A stretch of 40,178 nt of DNA from Vicinamibacterales bacterium (GTDB lineage Bacteria > Acidobacteriota > Vicinamibacteria > Vicinamibacterales > UBA8438): the NCBI GenBank assembly GCA_029940535.1, contig JAPYUM010000018.1:17161-57338 (forward strand). Direction: 5' to 3'. The notes under the pieces are model-generated. The model was not told where the DNA came from, searched no databases, and saw nothing but the letters and a program-made list of their open reading frames with translations. Below, one piece after another: positions 15,467 through 19,706 of the stretch (position 1 is its first letter; every line of letters begins with the position of its first letter). The position numbers and the translations under genes were made by a program.

Positions 15467-16111
15467 GTGAGATCGTCCAGTCGGTTGATGCACCACCTCG
15501 CCCAGAGCGGGGCCATCCTGAGCGACGACGGGCGTTATCGCTACGCGTTGCACCGCCCGGCGCGACGGACCGATCGGCCGGTGCTGTTCGTGATGCTCAA
15601 CCCGTCCACGGCGGACGCGCTTGCCAGCGATCACACCCTCACGAAATGTCAGCGATTCGCCAAGAGGTGGGGGCTGGGACCGGTGCTGGTTGGGAACCTC
15701 TTCGCGTGGAGGGCCACCGCGCCTCGTGATCTGTGGCTGTCACAACAGCACTGCGATATCGTCGGGCCGGATAACGAACGCTGGCTCGACGCACTGATGG
15801 AGCACGCAGAGCGCGTCGTTGTCGGGTGGGGCGACCAACCTGGCGCCAACGAGCAAACGACTCGGTTTCTGCACCGGTACCAGAGGCGCACGCTCACCTG
15901 CCTCGGCACCACGAAGTCCGGCGCTCCCAAGCATCCGTCCCGCCCGGCCTACGGCACGCGTTGTGTGCCCTTCACCCCGGTTTCCTGCCGACGTGCCCGT
16001 CTGGACGGCGTTGCTTCCTTGGTCACAGCCCGCCTGGCTGCTCCCTCGTCGCGCCTTGCCAGCCGAACACCTCGACAGGAAACCGCTCTTCCTCGTTCTT
16101 CAGCGACCTAG
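15467..16111 (+). CDS. DUF1643 protein with a C-terminal tail encoded by a repeat element
   Basis: The first 170 residues are a complete DUF1643 domain: FVMLNPSTADALASDHTL, NLFAWRATAPRDL, GWGDQ and the closing LGTTKSGAPKHP...YGTRCVPF. DUF1643 function is unknown. From residue 171 the frame enters the MITE-like repeat at 15979; the last 44 residues and the TAG stop are supplied by the element. In the other two full copies a stop codon stands exactly where this one has CC. The tail is basic and low-complexity and probably not part of the original protein. The start is GTG 15467 or ATG 15488; neither has a strong ribosome site. Confidence 0.8.
   Translation: MRSSSRLMHHLAQSGAILSDDGRYRYALHRPARRTDRPVLFVMLNPSTADALASDHTLTKCQRFAKRWGLGPVLVGNLFAWRATAPRDLWLSQQHCDIVGPDNERWLDALMEHAERVVVGWGDQPGANEQTTRFLHRYQRRTLTCLGTTKSGAPKHPSRPAYGTRCVPFTPVSCRRARLDGVASLVTARLAAPSSRLASRTPRQETALPRSSAT
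15979..16111 (+). repeat. MITE-like repeat, copy B
   Basis: Starts GGTTTCCTGCCGACG, carries the block GGACGGCGTTGCTTCCTTGG...CTCCCTCGTCGCGCCTTGCC shared with copy A, then the inverted arm CCTCGACAGGAAACC and a tail ending CAGCGACCTAG. It overlaps the 3' end of the DUF1643 frame and lies in the same direction relative to its upstream gene as copies A and C. Confidence 0.85.
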
Positions 16112-16260
16112 TAGGTTACCGGGTGCTGCAGTGGTACGAGGTCGTCCGATAAATTCGTGGCGGGACGGGAAGAAACACCGTCCCTGCGTGGTCTCCACCC
16201 CTGCGAGCCAGTCGCATTCTGGGCCGCCGCGGAAGGCGGCGGATCCGAGGAGGTTGTGGC

Positions 16261-16626
16261 ATGTCAAAGGAAGTACGAAACAAGATCGACGCTCTGCTGA
16301 AGGACGTCCCGACTGGACGGCGGCAGGCGCTGCGACGCTTGTTGATGGGGGCGGGCGTGCTCGCGTTGCTGCCGAGTTCGACGCTGCTCGCTCTGGAACC
16401 GGGTCAGAGGCAGGGCAAAGGCGGGGGGCGGGACGGTGGCAAAGGCGGACGTGGCGGCAAGGGCGGACGTGGTGGCAAGGGCGGACGTGGTGGCAAGGGC
16501 AAAGGCGGGTTCCCCGGTGACGGGAGCGGCAAGGGAAAAGGTGGGTTCCCCGGTGATGGCAGTGGCAAAGGTAAAGGCCGGGGCAAGGGTCGGCGCGGGG
16601 GCGGCGGCGACGCACCCGACGCGTAG
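16261..16626 (+). CDS. Small Tat-leader, Gly/Lys/Arg-repeat peptide (putative modified-peptide precursor)
   Basis: 121 residues. Residues 1-44 form a leader: a charged amphipathic start (KEVRNKIDALLKDV), a twin-arginine at 20-21 and a hydrophobic stretch 28-44, like a Tat signal. Residues 45-121 are almost only G, K, R with F, P, D and S: three GGKGGR units (59-76), two perfect 12-residue units GGFPGDGSGKGK (82-93, 94-105) and a GRGKGRRGGGG end. The repeats are also DNA repeats (18 bp at 16435-16488, 36 bp at 16504-16575). A strong GAGGAGG (16247-16253) fixes the start. It is followed 62 bases later by a PqqD-methyltransferase fusion, so I infer an exported substrate peptide. It could instead be a simple basic, polyanion-binding secreted protein. 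Confidence 0.75.
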   Translation: MSKEVRNKIDALLKDVPTGRRQALRRLLMGAGVLALLPSSTLLALEPGQRQGKGGGRDGGKGGRGGKGGRGGKGGRGGKGKGGFPGDGSGKGKGGFPGDGSGKGKGRGKGRRGGGGDAPDA

Positions 16627-16644
16627 TCGCAGGGAGTGAGATTG

Positions 16645-16671
16645 CCCGGGCCGCCGTCGCGGCGGCCCGGG
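16645..16671 (+). promoter_or_regulatory. Intercistronic hairpin between peptide and methyltransferase genes
   Basis: CCCGGGCCGCC and GGCGGCCCGGG are perfect arms around GTCGC, giving an 11-12 bp GC-only stem. There is no T-tract, so partial attenuation or mRNA protection is more likely than full termination. It would favour excess precursor over enzyme. Confidence 0.7.
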
Positions 16672-16688
16672 TCCATCCTCGAGTCGGC

Positions 16689-17837
16689 ATGCTCATCCTC
16701 AGTCCATCGGTGCTGCTCTCAACCACGGCCGACGGCTATGTCGCGTACGACGTCCACCTCGATCGGCTCTATCGCCTGAACCCCACCGCCGCGCTCGTTG
16801 TCGAGCTCTGCGACGGCACGCGAGACCTGGCGGCGCTGGAGCGCGACCTCGCCACTGTCGTCCGCGACGACTGGCCGCACTGGCGCGACTGGCTCGCGAC
16901 GGCGGTGTGCGACAGACTGGTCTACGAGTCGATGCCGGATGGGGTGCCGTCAGTGGCGGCGGCTGGTCCGGCCGAGCTTGCGACACAGGCGGATGAGCTG
17001 CAACAGCGCGACCGCGTTCTGGCCGCCTTCGTGTGCCAGCAACGGGCGTCCGGACTGGCCCCGGACGATCCTGCGGTGTCGCTGCGTCTGGGCGAACTGG
17101 CGCACATCGTTGGTCGTCGCGACGACGCGAGGAACGCCTACCAGCATTACCTCTCGCAGTGCCCGGATGACGCGGAAGTTGCCCATCTCATGACCGCGCT
17201 GAGCGACGAAGCTCCCCCGTCACGTGTCTCCAATCGGTGTATCGAACAACTCTATGGTCGGTTCGCTGGGTTCTACGACGAGAACATGCTCGGCGAGCTG
17301 GGTTACTGCGCGCCCGAACGGCTCCATCGCGCCGCGACGTCGGCGCTGGGCACTCGGACCGGTCTGAGCGTGCTGGACCTCGGATGTGGCACCGGGTTGA
17401 ACGGCTCGCGGTGGCGCGATCAGGCGACCCATCTGACCGGCCTCGACCTGTCCGAGCCGATGATCGCCAAGGCGCGGGCGAGAGGCGTCTATGACCGTCT
17501 CGACACCGCCGAGATCACGGCCTGGCTTGACACCGCGTCGGAGCGATTCGATGTGATCGTCGCCTGCGACACGCTCATCTACTTTGGCGATCTGACACAG
17601 GTCGTGCGACCGGCCCGACCACGTCTGACGGCGGGCGGCGTGCTGGCGTTCTCGCTGGAGCGAGGCGAGTGCGATGCCTACCAGCTCTCGGACTCGGGTC
17701 GGTTCACCCACCGTCCTGACTACGTGTCGAGCGTGGTCTCGGCGGCCAACCTGACCCTCGTCAGCCTCGACGAGACCGTCGTCCGCCACGAGTACGGACA
17801 ACCGGTCATCGGACTCCTCGCCGTCTGTCGCCGCTAG
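16689..17837 (+). CDS. PqqD-like domain / TPR linker / SAM methyltransferase fusion
   Basis: 382 residues in three parts. Residues 1-82 match the PqqD-like peptide-binding fold (DGYVAYDVHLDRLYRLNPTAALVVELCDGTRD), the RiPP recognition element used by many peptide-modifying enzymes. Residues about 100-175 are helical and TPR-like (LRLGELAHIVGRRDDARNAYQHYL). Residues 185-382 are a class I methyltransferase of the TPR-methyltransferase type (COG4976-like), with motif I VLDLGCGTGLNG (228-239), GLDLS (251-255) and VIVACDTLIYFGDL. I infer that it binds the leader of the adjacent Gly/Lys/Arg peptide and methylates it. The ribosome site at 16689 is weak, consistent with low expression relative to the peptide. 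Its TAG stop is the first base of repeat copy C. Confidence 0.85.
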   Translation: MLILSPSVLLSTTADGYVAYDVHLDRLYRLNPTAALVVELCDGTRDLAALERDLATVVRDDWPHWRDWLATAVCDRLVYESMPDGVPSVAAAGPAELATQADELQQRDRVLAAFVCQQRASGLAPDDPAVSLRLGELAHIVGRRDDARNAYQHYLSQCPDDAEVAHLMTALSDEAPPSRVSNRCIEQLYGRFAGFYDENMLGELGYCAPERLHRAATSALGTRTGLSVLDLGCGTGLNGSRWRDQATHLTGLDLSEPMIAKARARGVYDRLDTAEITAWLDTASERFDVIVACDTLIYFGDLTQVVRPARPRLTAGGVLAFSLERGECDAYQLSDSGRFTHRPDYVSSVVSAANLTLVSLDETVVRHEYGQPVIGLLAVCRR

Positions 17838-17954
17838 GTTTCCGGGCGAGGCGTTCGTAAAGGGCGGACGTCGCGGCATTGGCTCAGCGGGGCCACAGCC
17901 CGCCTGGCTGCTCCCTCCTTGCGCCTGGCCAGACGAACGCCTCGCCCGGAAACC
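17837..17954 (+). repeat. MITE-like repeat, copy C
   Basis: A 118-bp unit with perfect 22-bp inverted ends: GGTTTCCGGGCGAGGCGTTC plus GT at 17837-17858 and its exact complement at 17933-17954. The middle has CACAGCCCGCCTGGCTGC as in copy B. It starts at the last base of the methyltransferase stop codon and could fold into a long hairpin acting as a terminator. The CAGCRACCTRG tail of A and B is missing. Confidence 0.85.
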
Positions 17955-18023
17955 GCTCATGCGGGGCGCGGCCGCGTGCTACGCTCGGGAATCTACCGAC
18001 GCCACAGCAATCCGGGAGGCTTC

Positions 18024-19706
18024 ATGACTCGTAGGATTCGCACGATCGCTTGGCGCGTGTTGGGCTCAGCCGTGCTTTTTTCCGCGGCCTGTTCTCCGCC
18101 ACCGGCTGAAGCACCGACCCTCGAAGCGCCCGAGTCGGTCGAACTGTCGGTTGAGGTGCCGGTACGGGTGACCGGAGGCGACCTGCGGGGCGCCGTGTCG
18201 ACGATCGATCCTGAGATCATGGCGTTTCGGGGAATACCGTTCGCGGCGCCGCCCGTGGGCGACCTCAGATGGCGTCCACCGGAGGCGGTTGTCCCCTGGG
18301 ACGGCGTGCGCGATGCGGGCGAGGCCGGCGCTATCTGTGTCCAGGGTGGTGGCCAGGATGTTGTGCAAAGCGAGGACTGCCTGTTTCTGAATGTCTGGGC
18401 GCCGCGACACATATCCGAGCCACTGCCAGTGCTGTATTGGATTCATGGCGGCGGCTACACGGGCGGCTCCGGCTCGACCCAGATCTACGATGGTGCGAGA
18501 CTCGCGGCCGGTGGCTCGGTGGTGGTCACCATCAACTACCGGCTGAATGTGTTCGGGTTTCTCGCTCACCCGGCCCTATCGGCCGAATCGCCCCATGACG
18601 CCTCGGGCAACTACGGGTTGATGGACATGGTGGAGGGGCTTGGGTGGGTCCGCGACAACATCTCCTCGTTTGGGGGCGATCCAGATCGGGTGACCATCTT
18701 TGGAGAGTCGGCCGGCGCCGGGGCCGTGATGTCGGTGATGGTGATGCCGCAGTCAGCCGGCCTGTTCCATCGCGCGATCGCCGAGAGCAACTGGGTTCAC
18801 GGGTGGGATCGCCCCCTTCGGGGTGAGGCCACCGGGTTCGATTCGGCCGAGGCCCAAGGTCTCAGTGTCGCCGCGGCGCTGCATGCTGAGGCAGATACCG
18901 CCGACGCGTTGAGCGTGCTCCGCGCTGCCGACGCGCAGGCGGTGCTCGCGGCGGCCGACGCCGACGCCGGCAGCCCGTTCCTCCGGTCTGGGTATGTCTG
19001 GGCGCCCAATGTCGATGGCTGGACCATCCCGGATGATCCCCTCGCGCTCTACGCGAGCGGTCGTCAACATGATGTGCCGCTGATCGTCGGTATGAACGGG
19101 AACGAAGGGTCGCTGATGACCCAGGGGCTGCCGATCGCGGGCTCCGAGGACTTCACGGAACATGTCAAGTCGGTCTACCCCGGACAGGCGGACGAGATGC
19201 TCGCGCACTACGACGTCACGTCGGACGAGGGGGCGCAGCGTGGGATAGACCACCTGGTGCACGACATGTATTTCGCGGGGCCGGTTCGGGCGCATGTGCG
19301 CAGCCAGGCGGCGCTGTCGTCGCCCGTGTGGCTCTATCACTTCACGCACGAGCCGCCGACGCCCTGGGGCGAGACGCTGGGAGCCCATCATGCGGCCGAA
19401 CTGGTGTATGTCTTCGGCACCCTGACCACTACGGACGATCCGGGTGAGCGGCCACTCGGCTTGAGCCCGGTCGGCCAGTACACGGAGGTCGACCACCAGC
19501 TGTCGGACGCGATACGCGCCTACTGGCTCCAATTCGCCGCCACCGGCGATCCGAATCGTCCCAATCTCCAGGTCTGGCCGGCGTTCGACACCGGATCGGA
19601 CACGCACCTGGAGTTGGGGGCCGACGTCACGACGGGGCACGGACTCCACCGTGCTGGGGCCGCCCTGTGGGACCAGCTGCAGGCCCATCGGCGCGTGGCA
19701 GACTAG
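18024..19706 (+). CDS. Lipoprotein type-B carboxylesterase
   Basis: 560 residues. A short signal peptide ends in FSAAC, so C23 is a likely lipidation site and the enzyme is membrane-anchored outside the cytoplasm. The oxyanion loop is HGGGY (141-145); the triad is S229 (FGESAGAG), E361 (NGNEGS) and H456 (AHHAAELVYVFG). Family markers EDCLFLNVWAP and FGGDPDRVTIFGES are intact. The start follows CGGGAGG at 18013-18019. It differs from the Tat carboxylesterase at 9136-10722 in export route and sequence, so the two are distant paralogues. Substrate unknown. Confidence 0.9.
   Translation: MTRRIRTIAWRVLGSAVLFSAACSPPPAEAPTLEAPESVELSVEVPVRVTGGDLRGAVSTIDPEIMAFRGIPFAAPPVGDLRWRPPEAVVPWDGVRDAGEAGAICVQGGGQDVVQSEDCLFLNVWAPRHISEPLPVLYWIHGGGYTGGSGSTQIYDGARLAAGGSVVVTINYRLNVFGFLAHPALSAESPHDASGNYGLMDMVEGLGWVRDNISSFGGDPDRVTIFGESAGAGAVMSVMVMPQSAGLFHRAIAESNWVHGWDRPLRGEATGFDSAEAQGLSVAAALHAEADTADALSVLRAADAQAVLAAADADAGSPFLRSGYVWAPNVDGWTIPDDPLALYASGRQHDVPLIVGMNGNEGSLMTQGLPIAGSEDFTEHVKSVYPGQADEMLAHYDVTSDEGAQRGIDHLVHDMYFAGPVRAHVRSQAALSSPVWLYHFTHEPPTPWGETLGAHHAAELVYVFGTLTTTDDPGERPLGLSPVGQYTEVDHQLSDAIRAYWLQFAATGDPNRPNLQVWPAFDTGSDTHLELGADVTTGHGLHRAGAALWDQLQAHRRVAD

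Follow-up and report, generated by a model that had tools for sequence, protein, structure and literature searches.

A candidate RiPP-like module of two genes: a Gly-Lys repeat peptide with a Tat-type leader and a PqqD-TPR-methyltransferase

The closest known RiPP system appears to be that of the bufferins. Bufferins and other signal-peptide RiPPs have an MNIO enzyme and a DUF2063-RRE partner (PMC12452194). In the bufferin study, the partner protein is suggested to keep the signal peptide masked up to the end of modification, and EF-hand-bearing MNIO substrates are on record (PMC12452194). Sec signal peptides on RiPP precursors were termed highly unusual in 2025 (PMC12452194). Multi-lysine methylation in bacteria is known for few surface proteins. 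These include OmpB and AtaA, with PKMT and KmtA (PMC11784438), and mycobacterial HBHA (PMC8467707). In the literature searched, no natural Tat-leader RiPP was found, and no paper described Tat peptides together with a PqqD-TPR-methyltransferase.

Here we describe a pair of genes in a stretch of 40,178 nucleotides from a Vicinamibacterales bacterium, called the window throughout. The window is part of contig 171 of a 4.8-Mb genome. The pair contains the following features.

16248..16254, + strand: Shine-Dalgarno sequence AGGAGGT, 6 nt upstream of the ATG of the peptide gene (sequence scan)
16261..16626, + strand: gene for the 121-aa precursor peptide (15/17 loci have a homologue immediately before the enzyme gene)
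16261..16392, + strand: leader, a putative Tat signal, residues 1-44 (family leader motif)
16393..16623, + strand: Gly/Lys/Arg repeat core, residues 45-121, with 11 GK and 6 GR dipeptides (presumed methylation site)
16644..16672, + strand: intercistronic hairpin with a 13-bp stem (z -4.2 vs shuffles)
16689..17837, + strand: PqqD(RRE)-TPR-methyltransferase gene, 382 aa (ORF, Pfam, AlphaFold2)
16689..16928, + strand: predicted PqqD-like/RRE winged-helix domain, residues 1-80 (Pfam, AlphaFold2, PDB and NCBIfam profiles)
16968..17201, + strand: predicted TPR-like helices, residues 94-171 (Pfam, AlphaFold2)
17232..17834, + strand: predicted SAM-dependent Rossmann methyltransferase domain, residues 182-382, motif I LDLGCGTGL (Pfam, AlphaFold2, Foldseek)

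The first-pass annotation had described a 121-residue peptide with a leader and a repeat core, followed by a PqqD-methyltransferase, and both ORFs lie where it placed them. The peptide gene encodes MSKEVRNKIDALLKDVPTGRRQALRRLLMGAGVLALLPSSTLLALEPGQ, followed by the Gly/Lys/Arg core. Sequence comparison indicates that both ORFs are real rather than chance, because the enzyme has full-length homologues with 65-69% identity in the same family (G001, G016, and G022), each with a peptide gene upstream. Partial or broken enzyme copies were found in G002, G018, and G026. We consider it probable that the RRE domain binds the Tat leader and that the enzyme, still in the cytoplasm, methylates lysines of the core before Tat exports the peptide.

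The module is flanked by a gene for a DUF1643 protein before it and a carboxylesterase gene after it (Pfam). Neither neighbor is common to the homologous loci. An all-against-all comparison of neighboring genes found no third gene common to these loci, and a larger cluster with a protease, transporter, or second enzyme was ruled out on this ground. The Rfam scan of the window returned two tRNAs only. A dispersed palindromic element of ~117 nt flanks the two-gene module on both sides. It is MITE/REP-like, and its terminal inverted repeats are perfect over 22 nt (GGTTTCCGGGCGAGGCGTTCGT). Its copies lie at 17837-17958 and 15978-16088 of the window, and the upstream copy is diverged. The element occurs at about 40 places in G000, and a relative is also present in L037 (G018).

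The two genes differ in their ribosome sites. The peptide gene is preceded by a Shine-Dalgarno match of 4 nt or longer in 13/13 loci and the enzyme gene in 2/15; in the window, no such match lies upstream of the enzyme ATG. A hairpin is present between the genes in 13/15 loci, with a mean z of -3.2 over all 15, and the hairpins of different loci are unrelated in sequence. Those of L088 and L091 end in T-rich tails and are terminator-like; the window hairpin contains no T-run. A consensus scan of 15900-18100 found no sigma-70-type promoters and no T-tailed terminators. The natural reading of this layout is that substrate would be made in excess over enzyme. The first-pass annotation had proposed this from the strong peptide ribosome site, the hairpin, and the weak enzyme site, and the arrangement proved to be conserved.

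The enzyme is predicted to have a confident three-part fold. The AlphaFold2 model was built from 13 sequences and had a mean pLDDT of 92.7 and a pTM of 0.85. It contains an N-terminal winged helix with predicted strands at residues 2-4, 8-13, 16-21, and 26-30, a helix at 32-40, a short strand at 42-45, a helix at 47-74, and a strand at 78-80. TPR-like helices are predicted at 94-171, followed by the Rossmann domain from 182. The PqqD-like recognition fold named in the first-pass annotation was recovered by profile searches. PqqD (PF05402) matched residues 17-55 with an E of 6.6e-5 and 23.6 bits, 0.2 bits above the Pfam cut-off of 23.4 bits. This match is thin alone, but it recurs in 13/13 homologues, with a best E of 6.6e-7. 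A profile of the first ~95 residues from 15 loci matched a sole PDB chain at E <= 10. That chain was TfuB1 (6jx3; E 0.0036), a lasso-peptide recognition element, and the similarity spans RRE residues 4-46. The NCBIfam matches of the same stretch were RRE/PqqD families. Together, profiles and model indicate an RRE/PqqD fold for the N-terminal domain.

The remainder of the enzyme contains a TPR-like match at residues 105-171, which is under the curated Pfam cut-off, and a Methyltransf_12 match at residues 229-319 (E = 1.3e-14). The SAM motif reads GCGTGL in 12/13 homologues and GCGSGL in L094. It is strongly conserved over the 13 homologues, as is the C-terminal domain. Foldseek against the PDB matched SAM methyltransferases, including NodS and NTMT1, which are N-methyltransferases. 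These structural matches leave the substrate unfixed. The best NCBIfam matches of the whole enzyme were small-molecule methyltransferases, e.g., BioC, far under their cut-offs.

GK is retained in the core even though its length and sequence vary. GK dipeptides are present in 14/14 cores, with 6 to 19 in each. Core L079 is essentially (GK)n, and core L094 is (GGK)n. D, S, and P vary between cores. Cys is missing from 13/14 cores and occurs once in L088. The first-pass annotation had read the core as GGK/GGR units; GK/GGK is indeed found family-wide, but R is optional. Arginine is absent from L079 and L096 and occurs twice each in L088, L091, and L094. The analogy to RGG substrates of arginine methyltransferases was therefore abandoned. 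As a rule for the whole family, arginine methylation is rejected, since the cores do not conserve R; a PRMT/RGG substrate identity, for which a conserved RGG arginine was sought, was ruled out in the same sense. Across the family, lysine rather than arginine is the constant charged core residue. If the modified side chain is common to the family, it would be lysine, since GK occurs in every core and R is absent from two.

The same module could use a methyl acceptor other than lysine, such as Asp (isoaspartate via a methyl ester), Arg, or an N-terminus. Enzymes with a class I methyltransferase fold act on a wide range of acceptors, and the peptide alpha-N-methyltransferase NTMT1 is among the structural neighbors. 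The window core contains D within its FPGDGSG units, as well as 8 R. Against this, D is missing from L080 and L094, R is missing from L079 and L096, and K in GK context is present in all cores. A mature N-terminus would not exist until the peptide had been exported and was out of the enzyme's reach. We regard a non-lysine acceptor as unlikely and retain methylation of the core lysines as the preferred reading.

Three Planctomycete peptides encode an EF-hand (FDKDGDN-type) inside the core. These are L089:804-1199, L090:677-1192, and L091:1624-2016. The EF-hand_1 match is above its cut-off in L090.

Homologues of the enzyme were also sought in a wider scan of 84,980 species genomes. Among the 17 homologous loci whose upstream DNA could be read, 15 have the peptide gene directly before the enzyme gene. 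The paired loci are the window, L037, L039, L040, L041, L042, L079, L080, L088-L091, and L094-L096. Their peptides all have a Tat-type or Tat-remnant leader and a GK-rich core. They span Acidobacteriota, Planctomycetota, and one unplaced bacterium, and their flanking genes differ. The concern raised with the first-pass annotation, that methyltransferase homologues might never lie near such peptides, is thus answered by co-occurrence in two phyla and the unplaced bacterium. Enzymes with 43-51% identity are encoded by G140, G141, and G111, which belong to other families of the order; the wider scan added Planctomycetota, other Acidobacteria MAGs, and RI_372 (L096), which is the unplaced bacterium. 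The Planctomycetota carriers are a Gimesia MAG (L088), two Planctomicrobium MAGs (L089 and L091), and the isolate Aporhodopirellula aestuarii (L090). Two Acidobacteria MAGs (L094 and L095) also carry the pair.

Two loci are exceptions. G141 (L078) encodes an apparently intact enzyme with a hairpin before it and no adjoining peptide. In G564 (L140), the enzyme is frameshifted and the PqqD part is lost. In L037, L039, and L080, the module is damaged or incomplete. The peptide ORF of L037 (G018) has an apparent ATT start at oriented position 2802, behind a perfect AAGGAGG. Its enzyme is frameshifted, and the copy may be decaying or misassembled. In L040, a truncated second copy of the enzyme part (G016:C41:40015-40233) lies upstream of the intact module and appears to be a decayed duplication.

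The module is rare. The leader profile (A7) matched strongly, at E < 1e-12, in 8/162 genomes of the order, and the next leader match had an E of 0.0016. The enzyme N-terminus matched strongly in 9/162 genomes, which were the same 8 and G141. With a wider leader profile (A13), further matches appeared at E ~1e-5: in G104, a fragment at the end of a contig, and in G095, an ordinary exported protein. Outside the order, no genome among 193 of the class contained the module, and one further genome was found among 396 of the phylum. The order of G543 contained two module genomes among 397, one of them with a pseudogene. No plasmid homologues of the peptide were found. One Planctomycete contig (L181; G794:C416), found by profile, encodes a leader-motif peptide (LAGVRPARRDFL) with a G/K-rich GGGGK core. 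No enzyme was present in the 264 nt left on the contig, and none was found in a search of the genome set to which G794 appears to belong. L181 is either an orphan precursor or the result of an incomplete assembly or contig break.

The closest relatives without PqqD (G022:C72, G030, G061, G079, and G085) lie behind a gene for a ClpB-like ATPase and have no such peptide. A phylogenetic tree placed the PqqD-bearing enzymes and the sampled enzymes without PqqD in separate groups with 100/100 support. Within the PqqD-bearing group, Acidobacteriota and Planctomycetota were not cleanly resolved. Because the PqqD-less relatives have no peptide and form a separate tree group, presence of PqqD goes hand in hand with linkage to the peptide. 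The TPR-methyltransferase without PqqD behind a ClpB-like ATPase gene (L036, L044, L045, L046, and L047) recurs in several genomes of the order and is a second conserved methyltransferase association.

The two genes might instead be functionally unrelated members of an operon, one encoding a secreted polycation of low complexity and the other a methyltransferase for small molecules. Low-complexity GK peptides arise easily, and the BioC-type NCBIfam matches, although far under cut-offs, point the same way. This is improbable given the pairing in 15/17 loci of two phyla amid differing flanking genes, the PqqD-less relatives that have no peptide, and a leader motif that is specific to the family. 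The leader-guided pair remains the reading that we prefer.

The precursor leader appears to be a Tat-type signal. In the window, the candidate recognition motif consists of L13, V16, R20 R21, and L24. It is followed by a hydrophobic stretch and an A-x-A-like region at which cleavage is presumed. The family leader motif, LxxV/IxxxRRxxL, is present in 12/12 leaders and in 0/28 ordinary Tat signals taken from loci of the same genomes. Counted back from the twin Arg, L at 7 residues and V/I at 4 residues occur in 12/12 leaders, and both together occur in 0/28 controls. Fisher's test gave 1.8e-10, a p-value made too small by shared ancestry; since the family members share ancestry, the 12 leaders do not count as independent events. 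The leader was alignable in 13 loci. The cores have diverged past column-by-column alignment, and the leader motif is still kept.

Eight loci (L079, L088-L091, and L094-L096) contain the canonical RRxFL Tat motif. The Tat-type leader claimed in the first-pass annotation gains from TIGR01409, which scored above cut-off in two homologues, L088 and L094. The window signal, RRQALRRLL, is a weaker version, and a profile search with the window peptide's own Tat signal gave no family match. Most cores begin with Q, E, or D behind the A-x-A-like site, which looks as expected for cleavage by signal peptidase I. The features of a Tat substrate, i.e., an RRxFL-type motif, a hydrophobic region, and an A-x-A-like site, are thus present in the family and weaker in the window. 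An AlphaFold2 model of a readthrough fusion, based on the natural in-frame readthrough of L041, gave leader helices with pLDDT ~70 and an output without contacts. In another reading, the main role of the PqqD domain would be Tat proofreading as a chaperone of the peptide, with the methyltransferase acting elsewhere or sensing S-adenosylmethionine and the peptide exported unmodified. This would suit a leader motif that overlaps the Tat signal, as expected of an export-guarding domain, and a fold that does not fix the methyltransferase substrate. It is highly improbable given the strongly conserved SAM motif and C-terminal domain of the 13 homologues and the fact that fusion of an RRE to a modifying enzyme is the common arrangement for leader-guided modification (PMC12710340).

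In the preferred reading, one precursor and one enzyme make up a compact RiPP-like module. The enzyme, through its PqqD/RRE domain, would bind the leader around L-x-x-[V/I]-x-x-x-R-R-x-x-L, which would also be the Tat signal. Binding would keep the unstructured Gly-Lys core beside the methyltransferase domain, which would methylate the lysine side chains repeatedly in the cytoplasm. The Tat signal may be masked while it is bound, so the RRE may double as an export check. Masking, as suggested for bufferins, is plausible here because the leader motif overlaps the Tat signal. Release would expose the signal, and Tat export and removal of the leader by signal peptidase I would follow. The end product outside the cytoplasm would be a cationic peptide rich in methyl-lysine.

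The central idea of the first-pass annotation came through all of the tests run, with lysine probably in the place of arginine. Counting against the preferred reading are the G141 enzyme without an adjoining peptide, the L181 peptide without a detectable enzyme, and the narrow margin of the window protein over the PqqD cut-off. More tentatively, the family may form a new RiPP-like class in which a Tat signal serves as the leader and is read by an RRE fused to a lysine methyltransferase, with an export checkpoint. Its product would be a secreted, hypermethylated poly-(Gly-Lys) peptide, sometimes with a calcium-binding EF-hand in Planctomycetota. If true, the module would join RiPP leader recognition to Tat export and bacterial multi-lysine methylation. 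It would also make it possible to study the competition between a recognition domain and a translocase for a single signal. With only two genes, the module is easily tested.

Judged by analogy, the system appears to work like a RiPP and to fit no described class that we found. It has a conserved leader and a variable core next to a modifying enzyme, and that enzyme contains a candidate leader-recognition element of the RRE/PqqD fold. Its closest enzyme relatives are the PqqD-less TPR-methyltransferases beside ClpB-like ATPases, which share the TPR and methyltransferase parts at 35-39% identity but have no peptide gene, other neighbors, and a separate place in the tree. The daptide pathway also contains an RRE and a methyltransferase, and both give weak profile matches to the window enzyme. 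There, however, they are separate proteins of a multi-gene pathway, and the window enzyme is far under both cut-offs. The lasso RRE TfuB1 (6jx3) and PqqD have profile similarity and Pfam PqqD membership in common with the window domain. They are separate small proteins that act with a protease/cyclase or a radical-SAM enzyme, whereas the window domain is fused to TPR helices and a methyltransferase.

Like OmpB, AtaA, and HBHA, the proposed product is an exported lysine-rich protein with repeatedly methylated lysines. Those substrates are large adhesins, and no RRE or leader guidance is described for them. Membership in the OM-PKMT/KmtA group was ruled out, with PKMT_2nd scoring 15.9 against a cut-off of 27.8 bits and no regulatory-domain match listed.

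Bufferin membership was also ruled out. The methyltransferase is not an MNIO enzyme, 13/14 cores contain no Cys, and there is no third common gene. Bufferins use Sec, an MNIO iron enzyme, and Cys-containing cores; the window system would use Tat and a methyltransferase. Bufferins carry the RRE-type domain on the partner of the enzyme, whereas the window RRE is fused to the enzyme itself. In both, an export signal replaces the classical leader, and modification precedes export by a general pathway, as proposed here for the window system. Like some bufferin-type precursors, the peptides of L089-L091 contain EF-hands.
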